Of a stretch of 64,000 nucleotides of DNA, positions 44,039 to 54,157 are shown piece after piece. Position 1 is the stretch's first letter; each line of letters opens with the position of its first letter. The notes under the pieces were generated by a model. The model had not been told where the DNA came from, did not search any database, and saw only the letters and a program-made list of their open reading frames with translations. This DNA is from Hyphomicrobiales bacterium (GTDB lineage: Bacteria > Pseudomonadota > Alphaproteobacteria > Rhizobiales > Rhizobiaceae). The position numbers and the translations under genes are program-made. The stretch covers positions 643,558-707,557 of the forward strand of contig UICE01000003.1 of the NCBI GenBank assembly GCA_900471815.1, written 5' to 3'.

Positions 44039-46663
44039 ATGACGCCAATTGTTGATAGTGAAAAGCAAATCCGCAAAATAGAAGCACGAACGGAATCCAG
44101 TAACCCCTGGAGCGTTAAAGCCCGGTCTGCTCTGTTTGCATTTCTCGGTATCGCCGTCGCCGGGATAAGCTTGCTCGTCCTCAGTCATTTATCGAGCGAT
44201 ATCTATCTTCATGACGTTCGCCAATCGCTACGCGAAATACCGAGAAATCTGGTTTTTCTGGCTTTTGCCTTCACTATTTTGAGCTTCGCAGCCGTTGCCA
44301 TTTATGATGTCGTTGCTGTTGAGACAATTGCTCCGGGACGAATACCTTACCGAATTTCCGCGATGGCTGGAGGTGCTGGTTACGCTATCTCCAATGCACT
44401 TGGTTTCTCTCTGCTCACAGGTGGCGCATTACGCTACAGAATCTATGCTGCCGAGGGGATAGATACAGCCGATATCGGCCGGATCATTGGTACATCCTGG
44501 ATGGCCATATGGTTTGCATTCATCATTCTTATTGCTGTTGCACTTGTTATTGATCCTTCGCGAATTCCATGGGTTGTTTCGTTCGGACCCATTGTGGACC
44601 AAATTATCGGGGCTGGGGTACTCGCTTGCGTAGCGTTGCTACTGTATTGGCTTTCTAGACGTGAGCGGACTCTGCGGTTGGGCAAAATGTCAGTCAAGCT
44701 CCCTTCGACGCAGGGAGCGCTGCTGCAGATCATTTCCGGTTTGGTTGACGTCGCTGCTGCTGCGGCAACGCTTTACGTCCTGCTTCCTGCCGGATCGGTT
44801 AGCAGTATTCCTGCCTTTGCTCTCGTCTATGTCGTCGCCGTAGCACTCGGCATTGTGAGCCATGCGCCGGGTGGAATTGGTGCTTTTGAGGCCACCATCA
44901 TCGCTGGTCTCGGGCTTGGGCAAAATCCCGATGCAATTGCTGCACTGGTGGCTTACCGCGCCATCTACACCCTCTTTCCCTTTTTGATTGCCGTTGTCGG
45001 CTTTGCCTTGTCTGAAATCCTGCGGAAACGGCACGTGCTCACTGCATCAACCCAGACTGCCGTGAGGATGTTTGAGCCGCTCATCCCTCCGTTGTCGGCA
45101 GGAATAGCCTTTCTAGGCGGGATTGTGCTTCTAATTTCGACGGTGATTCCCGGCACGCATTATCGGCTAGAAGCGCTGTCGGGTATTGTTCCGATGCCCT
45201 TTCTCGAAATGTCGCACTTGGGTGCGAGCTTTGTTGGGCTAGCTCTTCTGATCGTGGCAAGAGGATTGGCGCGTCGCCTTTGGCGCGCTTGGCTTGTTGC
45301 GCTCGGACTGTTCAGCGCGGGTGCTGTATTCGCTTTGATCAAAGGTCTTGCATGGGAAGAGGCGCTGCTGCTCACATTGATGGCGGGTATTCTGCTGCTC
45401 TTTCGTGAATCCTTCTATCGTAAGCCACTTGGCGAGAGTTTTGCCTTGTCGTGGGGATGGCTGGCCAGCGTTGGAACGACAGCCTTTGCTATCATCTGGT
45501 TGGGATTCTTTGCCTATCGCCATGTTGAATATGCCAATGAGCTTTGGTGGGAATTTGCATGGGATGCTCAGGCATCGCGGTTTCTGCGCGCTCTGGTTCT
45601 GGTTTTAACTTGTCTTGCTGCCATAACAATTAACACGATCATAAATGGGGTAGGGCGTATCAAGCTACGTGCCCAGCCGATACCAGATGAAGTGCCCGCA
45701 TTGGTTGCTCAATCGGCACGTGCATCAGATGCATTGGCTTTGCTCGGTGACAAGCGCTTTTTGATGGATGATGCCGGGCATGGTTTTGTCATGTATGCCC
45801 GTTCAGGCGGAAGCCTGGTTTCCATGGGTGAACCCGTTGGTACCGATGATAAAACTGTCTCTGATCTTGCTTGGGCTTTTCGCGGGCTGGCTGATCGGAC
45901 GGGAACCAGAACGGTATTCTACGGCGTCGGACCAGAGCGCTTGCCACTATTTCTTGATATGGGATTAACTGCGTTAAAGCTCGGTGAGGTTGCACGGGTT
46001 GATCTCACCGAATTTTCGCTTGAGGGATCGAAGCGCCAACCGCTGCGTTATGCGGCGCGGCGTTTGGAGAAAGAGGGAGTGACTTTTGAAATACTCCCAC
46101 GAGAGCGAACTAGTGAAGTCATGCAGGAGTTGCGTGCGATTTCGGATGCCTGGCTGGCCATGAAGTCCGGATCAGAGAAAAGATTCTCGCTGGGTTCGTT
46201 TGAAAATGCCTATCTTGCCCATTTCGACATCGCAATCTTGCGAAAAGAAGGAGCAATTGTTGCTTTCGCAAACCTTTGGCGCGGTGCAGGGCAAGGGGAA
46301 GTCGCTGTGGATCTCATGCGACATTTACCCGATGCCTCAAGTGTCGTTATGGATGGGTTGTTTGCGAACCTGCTGGTTGCCGCCAAAAATGAGGGATACC
46401 GTTGGTTTAACCTCGGGGCCGCGCCGCTTTCGGGGCTTTCCGATAGCCATCTCGCATCACGTTGGAATCGCATCGGTTCATTCATTTACCGGCGCGGAGC
46501 TGAGTTTTACCGATTTGATGGACTTCGCGCTTTCAAGGATAAATTCGGTCCAAAATGGACTCCATACTACCTAATCTGCCCCCCGGGGCTTGCAACACCC
46601 CGCTCGCTTATTGATGCGACCAATCTTGTGAGCGGAAGCCCCTTCGAGGTTTTCAAACGATGA
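44039..46663 (+). CDS. lpiA: Lysyl-phosphatidylglycerol synthase/flippase (MprF/LpiA)
   Basis: An 874-residue membrane protein that transfers lysine from Lys-tRNA to phosphatidylglycerol and flips the product. Residues about 25-540 carry some 14 hydrophobic helices, including the flippase motif HAPGGIGAFEATII; residues about 555-865 form the cytosolic transferase domain (DAGHGFVMYARSGGSLVSMGEPVG, FYGVGPERLP, WFNLGAAPLSGL and the tail RFDGLRAFKDKFGPKW). In Rhizobium and Agrobacterium relatives this confers acid and cationic peptide resistance. It overlaps acvB by four bases, so lipid synthesis and hydrolysis are encoded together. Confidence 0.95.
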   Translation: MTPIVDSEKQIRKIEARTESSNPWSVKARSALFAFLGIAVAGISLLVLSHLSSDIYLHDVRQSLREIPRNLVFLAFAFTILSFAAVAIYDVVAVETIAPGRIPYRISAMAGGAGYAISNALGFSLLTGGALRYRIYAAEGIDTADIGRIIGTSWMAIWFAFIILIAVALVIDPSRIPWVVSFGPIVDQIIGAGVLACVALLLYWLSRRERTLRLGKMSVKLPSTQGALLQIISGLVDVAAAAATLYVLLPAGSVSSIPAFALVYVVAVALGIVSHAPGGIGAFEATIIAGLGLGQNPDAIAALVAYRAIYTLFPFLIAVVGFALSEILRKRHVLTASTQTAVRMFEPLIPPLSAGIAFLGGIVLLISTVIPGTHYRLEALSGIVPMPFLEMSHLGASFVGLALLIVARGLARRLWRAWLVALGLFSAGAVFALIKGLAWEEALLLTLMAGILLLFRESFYRKPLGESFALSWGWLASVGTTAFAIIWLGFFAYRHVEYANELWWEFAWDAQASRFLRALVLVLTCLAAITINTIINGVGRIKLRAQPIPDEVPALVAQSARASDALALLGDKRFLMDDAGHGFVMYARSGGSLVSMGEPVGTDDKTVSDLAWAFRGLADRTGTRTVFYGVGPERLPLFLDMGLTALKLGEVARVDLTEFSLEGSKRQPLRYAARRLEKEGVTFEILPRERTSEVMQELRAISDAWLAMKSGSEKRFSLGSFENAYLAHFDIAILRKEGAIVAFANLWRGAGQGEVAVDLMRHLPDASSVVMDGLFANLLVAAKNEGYRWFNLGAAPLSGLSDSHLASRWNRIGSFIYRRGAEFYRFDGLRAFKDKFGPKWTPYYLICPPGLATPRSLIDATNLVSGSPFEVFKR

Positions 46664-48042
46664 AGTTTTTACGCAACCGCTACACATTGATCGTCGCGGC
46701 TCTTCTGGCTGTCAGTATTGTTTTGGTTGCCGGGTTGCACTTTGCACCACAGCTGGGTTTCCGCTCATCGGGCAGACCTGTGCTCGTTTCAGCGGAACGT
46801 CTTACTGACGTGCCGCTTCTACAACCTTCGGGCAAACCAAAGGCACTGGCGATTCTTGTTTCGCAGAGGGGTGGTCTTGCCGCTGGTGATACGAAGTTGG
46901 CGCAGCTACTTCTCGATCGAGGTTTTCTTGTTCTTACGGTTGATCTGGAAAAATGGCGCAAGGTGCTCAACGAGGATACGGGCGATTGCACCTATTTCGT
47001 GTCGGACTTTGAGGGAATTGCCAAGGAGGCGCAGAGAATGATCGCTGTTGATGTTTACATGCATCCCGTGATTGTTGGGATAGGTGAGGGTGGTGTATTG
47101 GCCTATGCGTCGGTTGCAGATACGCCTGCGGCAACAATTGCCGGCGCAGTAATTGTTGATCCATCGGCTGCCCTCAATACGAAGCTGCCGTCTTGTGAAG
47201 GCGCAGATTATGAAGCAGTTGCAGGGCAGGGCTTCAGTTATTCTTACGATGCAGACCTGCCAAATCCGGCGACAATAATACGCGAGAAATCTGATACTGA
47301 GCCGAAAGGGCCGCCTAGCGCCGGATTCTTTTTAGCGCAGGAAAAAATAGGCTCGTCGATAGCAGAACGGCTGGAGTTGGCGGCGGACGCTGCCGTGGAT
47401 ATAGCGAAAGAAGATGCTTCCGCGGAAGCACTACCAGTGATCGATATTCCTTCAGCCAATGGCCCGGCAAAATATGTGGCTCTATTCTTTTCCGGTGACG
47501 GCGGATGGCGAGATATCGACAAATCGGTTGGCGATATAATTTCAAAAGAGTCCACCCATGTGGTTGGCATCGATTCACTGCGTTACTATTGGTCGCTTCG
47601 CAAGCCGGAAGGCATTGCGAAAGACATACAAAGAATGGTTGCCAAGGCCGATCCTAGCGGGAAATTACCTGTATTATTGCTGGGATATTCCTTCGGAGCC
47701 AATACGGTTCCTTTTGCGTGGCCCTATCTTCCCAAAGAGCTTCAAGACCGTATCAGCCTTGTCGGGTTAATCGGTACGGAAAAGACGACTCCTTTTCAGG
47801 TCTCTGTTGGCGCTTGGCTGGGATTGGGCGGCGACAATGAGGTTGCGCCAGCAATCACTAAAGTACCGACTGCCAAGGTGCTTTGCGTCTATGGATCAGA
47901 GGAAGACGACACGGCATGTACCGATCCGTCGCTAAGTGCCGTGGAAAAAATCGAGCTTCCGGGCGATCATCACTATGATGAGAAATACGAACTTCTTGCC
48001 GCAAAGCTGATGGAGGCAGTGGCAGCTCGTCAACTCAAATAG
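46660..48042 (+). CDS. acvB: AcvB/VirJ-family periplasmic lysyl-phosphatidylglycerol hydrolase
   Basis: A 460-residue protein with an N-terminal membrane anchor or signal (about residues 6-26) and two VirJ-type alpha/beta hydrolase halves. The C-terminal half has an intact nucleophile elbow GYSFGA (Ser about 344) and a closing GDHHYDEKYELL. The N-terminal half has GIGEGG, so its serine is replaced by glycine, leaving one active half. AcvB of Agrobacterium hydrolyses lysyl-PG made by LpiA. The ATGA overlap with lpiA and an 8-base convergent overlap with the next gene make this a very compact region. Confidence 0.92.
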   Translation: MKFLRNRYTLIVAALLAVSIVLVAGLHFAPQLGFRSSGRPVLVSAERLTDVPLLQPSGKPKALAILVSQRGGLAAGDTKLAQLLLDRGFLVLTVDLEKWRKVLNEDTGDCTYFVSDFEGIAKEAQRMIAVDVYMHPVIVGIGEGGVLAYASVADTPAATIAGAVIVDPSAALNTKLPSCEGADYEAVAGQGFSYSYDADLPNPATIIREKSDTEPKGPPSAGFFLAQEKIGSSIAERLELAADAAVDIAKEDASAEALPVIDIPSANGPAKYVALFFSGDGGWRDIDKSVGDIISKESTHVVGIDSLRYYWSLRKPEGIAKDIQRMVAKADPSGKLPVLLLGYSFGANTVPFAWPYLPKELQDRISLVGLIGTEKTTPFQVSVGAWLGLGGDNEVAPAITKVPTAKVLCVYGSEEDDTACTDPSLSAVEKIELPGDHHYDEKYELLAAKLMEAVAARQLK

Positions 48043-49012
48043 CGTTAGACGCTTTGATCAGTTTGTTGGCGTAGCGTTGGGCGATGACGGCGCAGGCCAT
48101 CAATTGAATCTGGTGGAATAGCATCAATGGCAGCATGATGCTGCCTATGCTCTGCCCTGCAAAAACTATCGTTGCGATGGGAACGCCGCTCGCCAAACTT
48201 TTCTTGGAGCCGCAAAAGGTAATCGCGATTTCATCTTCTCGCGAGAAACCGGCCCACCGGCTGCCAAACATCGTGGCGGTGAGCACAATCGCCAGCAAAA
48301 TGATATCGATGGCGATGAGCATGACGAGATCACTGATCGAGATCGTCCGCCACAGGCCTTCAGTAACAGATTCGCTGAAAGCAAGATAAACGACCATCAG
48401 GATTGATCCTCGATCAATCGGCATCAAAATTGTTTTCTTGCTGCGAAGGAAGTTACCAATCCACGGCTGAAGTATCTGCCCCAGAATGAATGGTGCCAGC
48501 AGTTGAAGAAGTATCGACCGGAGTGCTTCCAGCGAAAAGTCTGCATGACCTTGGGCTGATAATAGTATGCCCGCGAGAACCGGTGTTAAAAACATGCCGA
48601 AGATATTTGATGCTGTTGCCGCGCAAATTGCTGCGGGCACATTGCCGCCGGCAATTGAAGTAAACGCAATCGACGACTGAACCGTAGATGGCAAGACGCA
48701 AAGGAAGAGGACACCTGCGTAGAAGGTCGGTGAAAGAACAGCCGGTACCAAGGCGCCAATTCCCAACCCAAGCAGAGGAAATAGCACAAAGGTTGACGCA
48801 AGAATGGTCAAATGCAGCTTCCAATGAAGAAAACCGGCAATGACCACATCGCGAGAAAGACGCGCGCCGTGGAGAAAAAATAAAAGACCAATCGCAATCT
48901 TGGTGGCGTATCCGAAATATTCTGCGGTCGTTCCGCTGACCGGAGCAAAAGAAGCAATGATCACTGTGAGGACAAGCAGCACGGTGAAGGTATCAGGTAG
49001 AAAACGTGACAT
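48035..49012 (-). CDS. Bile acid:sodium symporter-family (BASS) transporter
   Basis: A 325-residue protein with about ten hydrophobic helices. The conserved family segments are ATKIAIGLLFFLHGARLSRDVV, LFLCVLPSTVQSSIAFTSIAGGNVPAAICAATASN and FCGSKKSLASGVPIATIVF, which together fit the SBF-like/YfeH group. The start at 49012 has TTGGAAAA upstream and begins with the usual SRFLPD; the frame continues to 49093. Substrate is probably an organic anion. Its 3' end overlaps acvB by eight bases. Confidence 0.87.
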   Translation of the reverse strand: MSRFLPDTFTVLLVLTVIIASFAPVSGTTAEYFGYATKIAIGLLFFLHGARLSRDVVIAGFLHWKLHLTILASTFVLFPLLGLGIGALVPAVLSPTFYAGVLFLCVLPSTVQSSIAFTSIAGGNVPAAICAATASNIFGMFLTPVLAGILLSAQGHADFSLEALRSILLQLLAPFILGQILQPWIGNFLRSKKTILMPIDRGSILMVVYLAFSESVTEGLWRTISISDLVMLIAIDIILLAIVLTATMFGSRWAGFSREDEIAITFCGSKKSLASGVPIATIVFAGQSIGSIMLPLMLFHQIQLMACAVIAQRYANKLIKASNAI

Positions 49013-49146
49013 GATTTTTCCAAGACGAGACAGCCTAATACGCTGCATGAACCGCACCGCCCAGTGCCAATAACGTCGCAGCAAAACAAGCACCGTTTGC
49101 CACTTATCGGCCCGATCTATTGTAGGGAATAAATAGGCGTGTTGGC

Positions 49147-51750
49147 CTAATCGGCGATAAGCGTTACCGTAGAAAAGTCACGCATCGCATCAGCAGCGAG
49201 CAGCGCGTCGCCTGGCAAAATCGTCTCACCTGTCAGGACGTTGTGAAACACTGCCGATGATATCGTTTCCGGCACATGGATGGTGGTGTCTCCCCAAGCG
49301 GGAATGGGCATGAACGGCTCCTGAAATTTCGAGACCGCCTCAAATGGCAAGCGGGGAACCGCGACAATACATGAACTGGATTCGTTGCGGCGCAAGAAGG
49401 CCAAAAGGTGGTCTGAATAGATACCGCTGATCTGTAGAGGAATGTAATCTCCCCGCAAAAACAATTCCGGATATTGCTGTCTTAGTCGAAGGTGAGTTGT
49501 GATAATACGTTGCTTCAAAGCGCCCGAATGCCAATCCGCCAATAAATTGGTGAATGGAGATTGCTCGGCATAGTTTAGTTGCGCACTCAGTTTTTCAAAG
49601 CCAGCATCGTCAGGCGCACCTGTCTGAGAAAGCGAAAAATCCCAGGTTTCAGAACCAGTTTGTATGACCGGCATGCCAGGCGTTGTCATTTTAAGGACGG
49701 TTTGTGAAAGGCTGTTGACTGCTCCCGCAACCCAATACGGCCTCATTCTATCTGCGAACTCCATCAGAAATGTACGATCGAGGAAGACGCTGCCAATATA
49801 GTCGGCAACTGCCATTTCATAGGGGCGGTTGACCTCCGTCCAAAAGGCGTCCTTTCTCATTTCCCGGATAGCTCTGATTACAAAGCCTGTTAATTCATCT
49901 TGAACAGCCAAGAGCGACTTTTGATCATCGAGATGGAGTTGGGGAGGCCAAATTGCAGCCATGGTCTGATAAATCAGCCATTCTGTTTCTGGATGTGGAA
50001 CCAGGGCGCCCTCAATCATCTTGACGTTTTGAGCGAAGCGTATTCGCCAGTCCGACACGCATTGTATCCAGTTCGCCGGAGATTCTGTGAGCGCCAAAAG
50101 ACGCATGCGGGCATCTTCACCAAATTTAGTAGCGTAGGAAAAGCTGGTGGCATTCATGCCCAAAGGCATCATTGCAGCCTTTTGGGCCATGTGTGTGTGA
50201 AACGCCTCAACCGGTCGTTTCGCATCGGCAGAGAAGACCGTAATTTCATCAACCGAAATCGGGCCACGGTCATAACGATAGGATTCTTCGACCGCTTGAG
50301 CCATAACTGCAGCCGATAGCTGTTGGTAGCGAGTATCAAATTCGTCATATATTTTTGGCGGCAGGGTCGATCTTGTTATCCCTGCGGTTTGCAAAATCAT
50401 TGTGTAGTGATCCTGTCGATCACTCGGGTAAGTTCGAAACACTGGTAGTTCCGTGATAGTTTCGGAAATTGCGCGCCTTGTTTCAAGTTCATCAATGTCC
50501 GCGGGCGAGAACTGCAAAAGAAAACGCGCCAACGCGTTCAATTCCGGCGCGAGTTTCTTGTGAAGAATGGCGTGCTTCGCATCCCGGTAATGGTTCTCCC
50601 GAGACCGTTCAACTCCCGCTACTGTCGCATGGGCTTGTTCTAGAGTTGGAAGCTGTGCGTGATTCACCAGGACATTTGATGCGACGGCAATAAACTCATA
50701 GCCGGCCGTTCCATCCACATCCCACTCTTCTGACTGCACCTCTCCATTCAGAAAAATTTTGTCGGTGACAATGTAAGCATTGCTGCCGGTGGCGTGACGC
50801 AATTGTTTCAAATATCCAGCAGGATCTGCAAGACCATCTATTTGATTCACTCGAAATCCGCTTACTGCACTTAGTTTGATTAGTTCCAATGCTGTTTTAT
50901 GAAAGTCATTGAAAACATCGGGGTCCTCCACATTTGCCCCCACAGAATAAAGGGAGTCGTATGAGTGTCGGTAAGTTAAGTGTTTGCGGGCGTCAGCGAT
51001 GGTCATTAAAATCCAATGCTGCTCTGTCAGAACTTTCTTTAAGGATGAGATGTCAACGGTTAGCCTGTTGAGGTGATCAGCCAGAGCAAGACGATTGGAA
51101 ACGCTGCTCCGTCCGTATATTACCCGCAAGTTTTCATGAAACTGGTCGGGATGGGATGGCTGAGCTTTGGCTGCTGCTTCACGAAATTGGTTGGCCAGTT
51201 CGCTATCGAGTCCTTGCAAGACTGTCGCATAAGATGGCGGTGACAAGGGATATAGATTTTGCGCGTGTGATATTCCCAGCACATTCGCCGCAGTATCAAA
51301 TACCAAGCTGATCGCACTATTATCGAGTTCTTCGACAAGCGGGCGCTCCAGCACCGGCAGGCTTAGCCGACTGCTCCAGTCGACGTCAAAATACTTGGCG
51401 TATTTGGCATCCTTACCCCACTCAAGCAGCGATCTCCACCACGGGTTTTCGTAAGAAGCAGGAATTTGATTAGGATTGATATCGATCAAAAGACTGATAC
51501 CCGCGTTTTCCAATGCGCGGATAAGTCTTGCAAAGCCCTGTTCGCCGCCCGATTTCCGATCCAGCGTAGTTGGGTCAAAAGATCGACGCCCGTTTCCAGC
51601 ATCGCTTGTATCGAAAACAGATGAAACGCTGACGCAGTCTATCCCCAGTCGTTTCAGATAGGGCACTCTCGACGTCAAATGATTGAAAGTAACACCATTC
51701 TTCAAAAGCAAGCGATAGGCTGATGTCGGTACGTCATTCCGTTTTGGCAT
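49147..51750 (-). CDS. TreY-like protein (malto-oligosyltrehalose synthase fold) with substituted catalytic residues
   Basis: An 867-residue protein matching malto-oligosyltrehalose synthase over its whole length (SAYRLLLKNGVTFNHLTSRVPYLKRLGID at the start, MPVIQTGSETWDFSLSQTGAPDD near the end). The GH13 active-site residues are changed: region I has DINPNQ where His is expected (Gln95), the nucleophile Asp is Asn302 (GFRVNQIDG), the acid/base Glu is replaced by Asp330 (IVTDKI), and the stabilising Asp in THDTKR is Ala540 (SYATKF). Catalysis by the normal mechanism is not expected. It lies 29 bases after otsA on the same strand. It could bind glycan or regulate OtsA; both are inference. Confidence 0.85.
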   Translation of the reverse strand: MPKRNDVPTSAYRLLLKNGVTFNHLTSRVPYLKRLGIDCVSVSSVFDTSDAGNGRRSFDPTTLDRKSGGEQGFARLIRALENAGISLLIDINPNQIPASYENPWWRSLLEWGKDAKYAKYFDVDWSSRLSLPVLERPLVEELDNSAISLVFDTAANVLGISHAQNLYPLSPPSYATVLQGLDSELANQFREAAAKAQPSHPDQFHENLRVIYGRSSVSNRLALADHLNRLTVDISSLKKVLTEQHWILMTIADARKHLTYRHSYDSLYSVGANVEDPDVFNDFHKTALELIKLSAVSGFRVNQIDGLADPAGYLKQLRHATGSNAYIVTDKIFLNGEVQSEEWDVDGTAGYEFIAVASNVLVNHAQLPTLEQAHATVAGVERSRENHYRDAKHAILHKKLAPELNALARFLLQFSPADIDELETRRAISETITELPVFRTYPSDRQDHYTMILQTAGITRSTLPPKIYDEFDTRYQQLSAAVMAQAVEESYRYDRGPISVDEITVFSADAKRPVEAFHTHMAQKAAMMPLGMNATSFSYATKFGEDARMRLLALTESPANWIQCVSDWRIRFAQNVKMIEGALVPHPETEWLIYQTMAAIWPPQLHLDDQKSLLAVQDELTGFVIRAIREMRKDAFWTEVNRPYEMAVADYIGSVFLDRTFLMEFADRMRPYWVAGAVNSLSQTVLKMTTPGMPVIQTGSETWDFSLSQTGAPDDAGFEKLSAQLNYAEQSPFTNLLADWHSGALKQRIITTHLRLRQQYPELFLRGDYIPLQISGIYSDHLLAFLRRNESSSCIVAVPRLPFEAVSKFQEPFMPIPAWGDTTIHVPETISSAVFHNVLTGETILPGDALLAADAMRDFSTVTLIAD

Positions 51751-51779
51751 TCTGATTCACTACTCCTGATCACGCTCAG

Positions 51780-53204
51780 TTAAGTTGTCAGGTGGATGGG
51801 CGAGTGTTTTGTGAACTGATGTATGAGCTGAGGTCGTTCAGTTTTGCCGAGAAGCGCATCAAGGTATTCGCGCTGCCACCATTGAGCATCATGCTCTGTG
51901 ACGCGTTTTAAAAGCTTGCGGTGCCGCAATTGCCGTTCGGCGAGTGGCATAGTCGCTGCTTTTTGAATAGCTTGTGCCACGTCATTGATATCGTAGGGAT
52001 TTACGATCAGAGCTTCGCTCAACTCCTCGGCGGCTCCAGCAAACTTGGACAGTATGAGAATCCCGGGATCTGCATCGTCCTGCGCAGCGACATATTCTTT
52101 CGCGACAAGGTTCATTCCATCGCGGAGTGGCGTAATCAAGCCTATCAAACTTGATTTGAACAGTGGGGCAAGTTTAGAGCGCGCAATGCTGCGATTGATA
52201 TATTGGATCGGCGCCCAGTTGAAATCGGCAAACTTGCCGTTGACTGCGCCAGCGAGTTGTTCAAGTTCTGATTTTATGTCGCCGTAAGCTGTTACGTCTT
52301 CACGTGAAGGAGACGCAATTTGTAGGTATTCAGCATGCCCCTGGTACTCAGGATAAAGGTCAAGAAACTTTCGAAATGCTTTTATGCGATGTGGCAAACC
52401 CTTGGAGTAATCGAGACGGTCAGCAGATATGATCTGGAACCGTTTTAACATTTTCCGGCGGATGCGTTCGAGTTCCACCGTGTCATCCGATTTGCTGGAT
52501 GTCTGGGCAAATTGCTTCACATCGATCCCGATTGGAAAATGCCCGATATGAATTGTACGACCGTCAACCCGCACTAATTCCGGCGAAATTATATCTGCGT
52601 CGGAATGTTCTTTAAGATAACGATGAAAATTCTGAACGTCGTTTACCGTTTGAAACCCTATGAGATCATATTGGAGTAGACATGATCGCAGCCATTCATG
52701 TCTTGGAACGGCCGAAAATACGTCAATGGAAGGAAAGGGGATGTGCAGGAAAAAGCCGATCTTATTGCCACAACCTTTCTGGCGCAGTTTCGCTGCCATA
52801 GGGATCATGTGATAATCATGAACCCAGATCACATCATCCTGCTTAAGCTGGGGGGCAAGCGTGGCCGCAAAACGCTCATTGACTGAAGCGTAGCAATCAG
52901 CAAACTCAGTGCGATAGTCCATTAAATCCAGCCGATAGTGAAAGGCTGGCCAAAGCACCTTGTTTGAAAATCCGAGATAATATTTCTCGTGCTCTTCTGG
53001 GGTAAGGGATGTCGTCAGCGTTGTTACGTTGTCGTACTTTTCCTGTTTTGGGGCTGAAATATCTTCCGAAATACGTCCATCCCAACCCATCCACAGGCCG
53101 TCTTGGCTTTTCAAAGCATCGACAATTCCGACTGTTAATCCCCCTGCCTGTGATTTTTTAGTGAGGTTCGCCGTTCGGTTTGAAACAACAACCAACCGTC
53201 CCAT
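51780..53204 (-). CDS. otsA: Trehalose-6-phosphate synthase
   Basis: A 474-residue GT20 glucosyltransferase that makes trehalose-6-phosphate from UDP-glucose and glucose-6-phosphate. Intact motifs are VVVSNRTANL with the AGGLTVG loop, VWVHDYHMIPMA, SADRLDYSKGLPHRIKAF and the donor-site region ILSKFAGAAEELSEALIVNPYD. The start at 53204 matches the family's MxRLVVVSNR. It is followed by the TreY-like gene, and otsB is divergent 149 bases away, so a shared promoter region is likely. Confidence 0.96.
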   Translation of the reverse strand: MGRLVVVSNRTANLTKKSQAGGLTVGIVDALKSQDGLWMGWDGRISEDISAPKQEKYDNVTTLTTSLTPEEHEKYYLGFSNKVLWPAFHYRLDLMDYRTEFADCYASVNERFAATLAPQLKQDDVIWVHDYHMIPMAAKLRQKGCGNKIGFFLHIPFPSIDVFSAVPRHEWLRSCLLQYDLIGFQTVNDVQNFHRYLKEHSDADIISPELVRVDGRTIHIGHFPIGIDVKQFAQTSSKSDDTVELERIRRKMLKRFQIISADRLDYSKGLPHRIKAFRKFLDLYPEYQGHAEYLQIASPSREDVTAYGDIKSELEQLAGAVNGKFADFNWAPIQYINRSIARSKLAPLFKSSLIGLITPLRDGMNLVAKEYVAAQDDADPGILILSKFAGAAEELSEALIVNPYDINDVAQAIQKAATMPLAERQLRHRKLLKRVTEHDAQWWQREYLDALLGKTERPQLIHQFTKHSPIHLTT

Positions 53205-53353
53205 AGATTAAGTCCCTTGCATTCGAGTTGAATAAACCCAATCCGCTCGGGCGCAGATGGTTCCCATTTTTTTCGAATTAGTAATGAACCATTTGTGTCG
53301 CGTGGAGTTTAAACAGCACCACCCTAGCTCCACCAACACGGCGAAATTTATAG

Positions 53354-54157
53354 ATGAAATCTGATTCAACGGGAGTACTTCCAAAAGATCTCCATAACTG
53401 GGCCTTGTTTCTGGATGTTGACGGAACACTGATCGATCTTGCCTCCACGCCCACGGGCGTAAAGATACCGCAAGAATTGCCGGGACAATTATTATCGCTT
53501 TTCACGCAGCTGGATGGAGCCATGGCTCTGGTAACCGGGCGCTCGATTGAATCTGTCGACGCCATGTTTGCCCCTTTTCAATTTCCTGTTGCAGGGATGC
53601 ACGGCTCGGAAGTTCGGGATGGGTCAGGAAATCTCGGTAGAAAGCTGATTAATCGCTTGGCGCTTGATCAAGCACGCCAGGAGCTGGAAAAGCTGACGGC
53701 GCGTTGGCCGCAAACCATTATTGAAGACAAGGGCTTGGCTATCGCGATGCACTATCGTTTGGTTCCCGAGGCTGAAAGGGCGGTGCAGGCCACGATGTCC
53801 ACGGTTCATTCCAGACTTGGCGAGGGATGGAAACTCCAGAACGGGAAAATGGTTGTGGAACTGCTGCCGTCGGGTACTGATAAAGGATCTGCAGTAGCAG
53901 ATTTTATGACAATGGCTCCCTTTAAGGGTAGAAAGCCGCTGGCTATTGGTGATGATCTCACGGATGAGGCCACGTTCCGTTTTGTTAACGGATCAAACGG
54001 TCTTTCCGTCAGAGTTGGTCGGCCACTTTTTCAAAGTGATGCGCAATATAAGGTCAACTCCCCCAACGAGGTGAGGGGATGGATTGCAGCTCTGACGGGA
54101 GCCCCAAAACAAACGGATAAATCGCCTGAGTTGTTTCCACTTTCTAATCAGGACTGA
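53354..54157 (+). CDS. otsB: Trehalose-6-phosphate phosphatase
   Basis: A 267-residue HAD-superfamily phosphatase. Motif I is [13 protein letters not shown], with nucleophile and acid aspartates, motif II is ALVTGRS, and motif IV is [12 protein letters not shown]. The [17 protein letters not shown] segment is typical of OtsB. It completes trehalose synthesis by dephosphorylating the OtsA product. It is divergent from otsA, and its 3' end overlaps the convergent sugar-dehydrogenase gene by 14 bases. Confidence 0.95.

Follow-up and report, generated by a model that had tools for sequence, protein, structure and literature searches.

We describe a family of homologs of the malto-oligosyltrehalose synthase TreY, here termed TreY', which is encoded directly behind the trehalose-6-phosphate synthase gene otsA in 13 of 20 genomes of the genus Phyllobacterium and in which the Asp/Glu/Asp catalytic triad, kept in all 52 canonical TreYs compared, is retained in none of the 13 members. 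One of these members lies in the stretch of 64,000 nucleotides of Phyllobacterium DNA analysed here (the window), where an ORF at positions 49147..51750 on the minus strand, supported by family and structure matches, codes for a TreY-fold pseudoenzyme of 867 aa. Judged from its sequence, TreY' very likely lacks TreY activity, and we posit, as a proposition that we hold to be about evenly balanced, that it serves OtsA-dependent trehalose synthesis as a partner or regulator that has a TreY fold but no catalysis of its own. A role of this kind is favored by the constant place of the gene, the close or overlapping frames of otsA and treY', their joint absence from certain genomes, the agreement of their trees, and the dearth of alpha-glucan enzymes in most of the genomes that carry them.

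Catalytic centre and fold of TreY'

We compared the window protein with canonical TreYs at five positions, which correspond to the catalytic positions of the GH13 family. The codons were read directly, and the alignments were made with phmmer to the structures 6lcu and 1iv8 and with MAFFT together with the relatives. All five positions are changed: Gln95 (codon CAA, 51466..51468, minus strand) replaces the histidine of the PNH motif, Asn302 (AAT, 50845..50847, minus) the Asp that serves as catalytic nucleophile, Asp330 (GAC, 50761..50763, minus) the acid/base Glu, and Tyr539-Ala540 (TAC GCT, 50131..50136, minus) the His-Asp of the THDTKR motif. The substitutions at positions 95, 302, 330 and 540 had been proposed in the initial annotation, and they are borne out by the alignment with 6lcu, 1iv8 and the 52 canonical TreYs, in which the Asp, Glu and Asp of the characterised enzymes are absent at the TreY' sites; Tyr539 is a further change beyond those four. 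The same set of catalytic positions is named for the isoamylases in a study of these enzymes (PMC3787081).

The five columns read H-D-E-H-D in 52 of 52 canonical rows, some of which are near-duplicates, as opposed to 0 of 13 TreY' rows; excluded from this count were L077 (broken frame), L079 (no ORF found), L081 (partial), and hits in the genomes G038 and G053. The corresponding strings in TreY' are QNDYT (seven copies), QNDYA (three), and HNDYA, QNDHA and RNDYA (one each). The triad changes are universal: the nucleophile position is Asn and the acid/base position Asp in 13/13, and position 540 is Thr in seven copies and Ala in six. At the two histidines there are single exceptions, with position 95 being Gln in 11 copies, Arg in one and the original His in one, and position 539 being Tyr in 12, the second His surviving in one copy. 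The replacement of Glu by Asp330 is a conservative change, though one that is fixed in all 13. As the same triad changes recur in 12 further genomes, chance or sequencing error appears very unlikely to lie behind them.

The window protein had been taken at the outset for a TreY-length homolog, and this view is upheld by its match to the TIGR02401 model (556.7 bits against a cut-off of 498.65), which covers model positions 1-836 of 838, and by a predicted structure that aligns with 1iv8 at a TM of 0.89 normalized by the target (0.75 by the query). Together with four further TreY' proteins (L052, L054, L059 and L061) it scores in the range 543-617, with 5/5 above the cut-off, while two canonical TreY controls reach 884 and 975. 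The first five matches among solved structures are the TreY entries 6lcu, 6lcv, 1iv8, 5zcr and 3hje, and Foldseek searches with the AlphaFold2 model of TreY' (26 alignment rows, pLDDT 87.5, pTM 0.88) likewise rank five TreY entries at the top, with TM by target length of 0.85-0.89. We found no additional domain in TreY'. The model falls under a pLDDT of 50 at residues 1-4, 502-508, 634-638 and 710-716; a canonical TreY control modelled from the same 26 rows attains 92.0 with zero stretches under 50. Nevertheless, the loop disorder of the TreY' model is modest evidence, since canonical TreYs make up 15 of the 26 rows and the DPDNRR block is weak in the control as well (69, versus 59 and 78 in the two blocks of TreY'). 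In sum, TreY' is like TreY (TIGR02401, EC 5.4.99.15; 1iv8, 6lcu) in its full-length alignment and predicted fold, but differs from it in the replaced catalytic positions, in the loss of the HGYD, NYRRFF and LVDPDNRR motifs, in sitting with otsA, and in that TreZ is absent from 11 of the 13 carriers.

The otsBA-treY' locus across Phyllobacterium

In the window, otsA (51780..53204, minus strand), which codes for a trehalose-6-phosphate synthase of 474 aa with intact motifs, is separated from treY' by a spacer of 29 bases (51751..51779, minus). The trehalose-6-phosphate phosphatase gene otsB (53354..54157, plus) is transcribed divergently from the other side of an intergenic region at 53205..53353, to which no strand is assigned. 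The ORF coordinates agree with the gene order and spacing first reported, as they do with the intact frame of 867 codons. The arrangement is the same in the 12 other carriers, with otsB divergent and the treY' frame open and free of internal stops in 13/13. The gap between otsA and treY' runs from -4 to +50 across the 13 copies, a range that depends on the start codons chosen in the analysis; it is -4 in six of them and +5 in P. zundukense with the RefSeq start. At the treY' stop codon lies a hairpin that resembles a terminator (49134..49149, minus); it is weak evidence, the number of such sites being close to that in shuffled sequences (9 found versus 6.6 expected, sd 2.3). Rfam yielded no matches.

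Beyond the genus we found no further case of TreY' among 394 genomes of the family, 397 of the order and 385 of the class, samples that overlap and were surveyed at cut-offs of 1e-100, 1e-205 and 1e-215, respectively. The best score of the TreY' profile outside the genus is 731 bits, as against 1377-1662 for TreY' itself. Residues were read in 25 of the 120 non-genus hits of the family sample and in three of the seven other genomes of the order sample; the remaining 95 hits (<=731 bits) and four genomes were judged by score. A search of named genomes with two peptide patterns recovered 32 loci; ten of these have 40-70% identity, and all ten come from Phyllobacterium and are loci already counted, hence no extra evidence. 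Among plasmids 337 records matched; of the best 15 of these 337, only that of P. zundukense (50%) comes near, and it is the locus already counted in genome G013; in P. zundukense otsA and treY' reside on the plasmid NZ_CP104969.1.

OtsA (at E 1e-30) is present in 14 of the 20 genus genomes: 13 have it with TreY', one has OtsA only, none has TreY' only, and six have neither (Fisher p 1.8e-4, uncorrected for descent). A tree-based pairing test, for which the independent events are too few, gives p 0.25. Mapped on rpoB, otsA and treY' are missing together at three points of the tree, namely G017, G014 (88% complete, which makes absences there less firm), and a clade of G012, G003, G015 and G011; each joint absence may reflect the loss of one DNA segment. 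G016, which sits within this clade on rpoB, has otsA and otsB as a divergent pair without TreY' (L140, G016:C5, 7196-9537) and constitutes a natural control; no treY' remnant is evident within 17 kb of its otsA (best tblastn E 5.8). Since G016 has OtsA and a divergent otsB with no TreY', this type of OtsA can persist without TreY'. In the OtsA tree G016 groups with the TreY' carriers G004, G006, G008 and G019 (90/85), and rpoB places it elsewhere; in this genome TreY' may have been lost, or otsA alone may have been transferred. OtsA is alike in 11 motifs across all 13 carriers and G016. G019 also has a second, distant OtsA (L141, G019:C37, 6839-9183), 53% identical to that of the window. An ORF resembling otsB lies upstream of it in the same orientation, and no TreY' was seen near this locus, which is close to a contig end. 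A regulator of OtsA would fit the adjacency of the genes, their close or overlapping frames, and the presence of TreY' only with this type of otsA.

Two of the carriers, G001 and G005, have a canonical TreY with intact residues elsewhere in their genomes and are the sole holders of TreZ among the 20. In these two alone, the canonical TreY has TreZ and other GH13 genes in its neighbourhood (G001:C2, 404-419 kb; G005:C7, 312-337 kb); we would guess that this cluster was separately acquired. Descent of TreY' from these two canonical copies is unsupported, as the tree puts them elsewhere.

Selection and descent of the locus

The treY' gene shows dN/dS values (Nei-Gojobori, NG86) of 0.061-0.103 among G001, G005, G007, G009, G013 and G018, and of 0.117-0.142 among G006, G008 and G019. 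Comparisons of G010 with the first six give 0.226-0.269 at a dS of 1.66-1.99, which is near saturation, and the pairs that involve the window's own copy are saturated in dS. Given values of 0.06-0.14 in the nine best-measured copies and 0.23-0.27 near saturation, we take treY' to be a constrained gene and not a decaying one, in keeping with the original contention that it is kept as a protein; dN/dS is well below 1 in all measurable pairs. In the same two sets otsA has values of 0.028-0.075, those of G013 and G018 being affected by otsA starts set too far upstream in the dN/dS run. In the pairs compared treY' evolves faster than otsA, with a dN about 1.0-3.6 times as high.

All TreY' proteins form one clade (SH-aLRT 100) apart from the canonical TreYs of Phyllobacterium, and the stem that leads to it measures 1.02 changes per site; this is a quick tree with ten named rows omitted, and the length of the stem makes its attachment point unsure. 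The trees of OtsA and TreY' agree in uniting G010 with the window and G002, and G004 with G006, G008 and G019. Unlike these two, the rpoB tree groups G010 with G004 and G017 (99/98). As the OtsA and TreY' of G010 side with those of the window and its rpoB does not (loci L033 and L167), a transfer of the otsBA-treY' locus from one species of the genus to another seems to have taken place, with otsA and treY' traveling together as a unit.

Remodelling of the former active site and possible functions

Of the 132 columns conserved at >=93% in canonical TreYs, TreY' keeps the consensus in 83 and loses it in 49, with many of the lost columns falling in HGYD, PNH, NYRRFF, the strands of the nucleophile and the acid/base, THDTKR, YQG and LVDPDNRR. 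Conservation was scored within nine TreY' rows, with four near-copies omitted. On this measure the 49 lost columns stand at 0.57, versus a protein average of 0.56 and 0.98 in canonical samples, and the HGYD and DPDNRR columns at just 0.35; however, 12 hand-picked columns of the catalytic centre reach 0.86 (mean 0.56; canonical 0.97) with new residues, and N92, N302, D330, S538 and F543 are fixed in 13/13. We read this as an outer substrate cleft that was eroded around a centre that was retained and re-fixed. Folding constraint alone could explain the conserved centre, since canonical TreYs show a similar level of conservation in strands beta4 and beta7 (0.85 and 0.87 against 0.87 and 0.92).

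Neither glycogen synthase GlgA nor glycogen phosphorylase was detected in any of the 20 genus genomes, and TreZ occurs in two of the 20; its absence, as first reported, holds for the window's genome at E 1e-30. GH13 domain matches at E 1e-10 are restricted to three genomes, all of them carriers (G001, G005 and G010), with none in the other 17; in this search the two canonical TreYs match and TreY' itself falls below threshold, so that highly divergent GH13 proteins may have escaped notice. Ten of the 13 carriers, among them the window's strain, gave no hit to the alpha-glucan enzymes sought, namely GlgA, GH13 and glycogen phosphorylase. This scarcity in most carriers weakens a role in maltodextrin binding. 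The initial annotation had pictured a pseudoenzyme that might bind glycans or regulate OtsA. Its first part is strongly supported by the triad changes in 13/13, the low dN/dS, the retained fold and the single clade; the glycan-binding part is weakened, because 17/20 genomes have no GH13 match at E 1e-10, GlgA and phosphorylase are found in 0/20, and the HGYD and DPDNRR motifs are eroded.

Hence, in our preferred scenario an ancestral malto-oligosyltrehalose synthase would have lost its GH13 machinery a single time, ahead of the split among the copies sampled from Phyllobacterium, and TreY' would have stayed alongside otsA as a protein without catalysis. By binding OtsA, or an OtsA-OtsB assembly, it might stabilise this partner or adjust its activity, and a small ligand might occupy the former active site, in which the central strands are kept with new residues. 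In this scenario the co-expression of the two genes, the contact between TreY' and OtsA and the direction of any regulation are inferred. The more specific form of this proposal, in which an enzyme of the TreYZ pathway was converted into a regulator of the OtsAB pathway, with TreY' serving a bacterial trehalose-6-phosphate synthase as its non-catalytic subunit or as an allosteric partner and possibly being ligand-gated through its rebuilt pocket, falls a little short of an even chance in our estimate.

The new fixed residues of the former active site would equally suit a ligand sensor or a glycan- or trehalose-binding protein without contact to OtsA, its pocket holding trehalose, trehalose-6-phosphate or an imported sugar. 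We consider this unlikely, as 10/13 carriers are devoid of the alpha-glucan enzymes sought, the outer sugar-binding motifs are eroded, and a sensor needs an output, yet TreY' has no other domain that we could find. Rather more doubtful is the gain of a new catalytic activity by rebuilding of the active site: the new invariant polar residues and the purifying selection speak for it, but Asn stands in for the nucleophile and Ala or Thr for the third Asp, the sequence comparisons brought out no compensating carboxylate, and the AlphaFold2 model shows poor order in the loops that surround the site. That TreY' remains active as a TreY through a displaced catalytic set, as its score above the NCBI equivalog cut-off and the conservative nature of Asp330 might intimate, is highly improbable in light of the differences at 5/5 catalytic-centre positions in the window protein, the consensus lost in 49/132 columns, and the lack of TreZ in 11/13 carriers and of alpha-glucan enzymes in 10/13. 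Comparably remote is a functionless gene decaying or hitch-hiking with otsA, for although treY' is absent from 7/20 genomes (one of them with otsA) and outpaces otsA in evolution, the carriers are spread across the rpoB tree of the genus, and the low dN/dS in every measurable pair and the 13 open copies speak against neutral decay.

There are parallels for non-catalytic components in related settings. The yeast proteins Tps3 and Tsl1 derive from synthase/phosphatase domains, whereas TreY' derives from a GH13 isomerase. In PMC9635654, Tps3 and Tsl1 are called putative regulatory proteins of trehalose synthesis, that is, proposed non-catalytic helpers of the trehalose-6-phosphate-dependent pathway, as we propose for TreY'. 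The plant protein ISA2, according to PMC3787081, belongs to the alpha-amylase superfamily, has 6/8 active-site residues replaced, and complexes with the catalytic ISA1; like TreY' it was retained despite its replaced catalytic residues, and it offers by analogy a precedent for a GH13-superfamily pseudoenzyme acting as a subunit. However, the partner of ISA2 is a related isoamylase, whereas the putative partner of TreY' is OtsA, an unrelated GT20 glycosyltransferase. Neither comparison shows anything about Phyllobacterium itself.

In the searchable literature, outside which most subscription journals lie, we found no paper on an inactive TreY and none that mentions Phyllobacterium together with the TreY enzyme name. 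A review (PMC11046441) has nothing on inactive TreY in the parts covered, and PMC10886315, to the extent covered, deals with otsA of Mesorhizobium, not Phyllobacterium. The P. zundukense copy (WP_262290624.1, on NZ_CP104969.1) is named treY in RefSeq, which is probably a misannotation. As the TIGR02401 equivalog cut-off admits TreY', predictions of maltodextrin-derived trehalose that are based on this label may be wrong. Should the proposed role hold true, an enzyme of one trehalose pathway would have become part of the other, for the most part in bacteria without the first pathway, and partner-mediated control of bacterial OtsA would become testable in a tractable plant-associated genus.

On the far side of treY', a gene for an SBF-like transporter (PF13593; window 48035-49093, minus) lies on the same strand, 53 bases downstream. 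Since about 5 kb separate the two genes in two relatives (L032 and L033), the transporter gene probably falls outside the conserved otsBA-treY' unit. Elsewhere in the window, at 44039-48042 on the plus strand, an mprF-like gene (NF033480, 871 bits) is followed with a 4-base overlap by a VirJ-type gene (PF06057), a pair that we take to resemble the rhizobial lpiA-atvA/acvB acid-tolerance operon.
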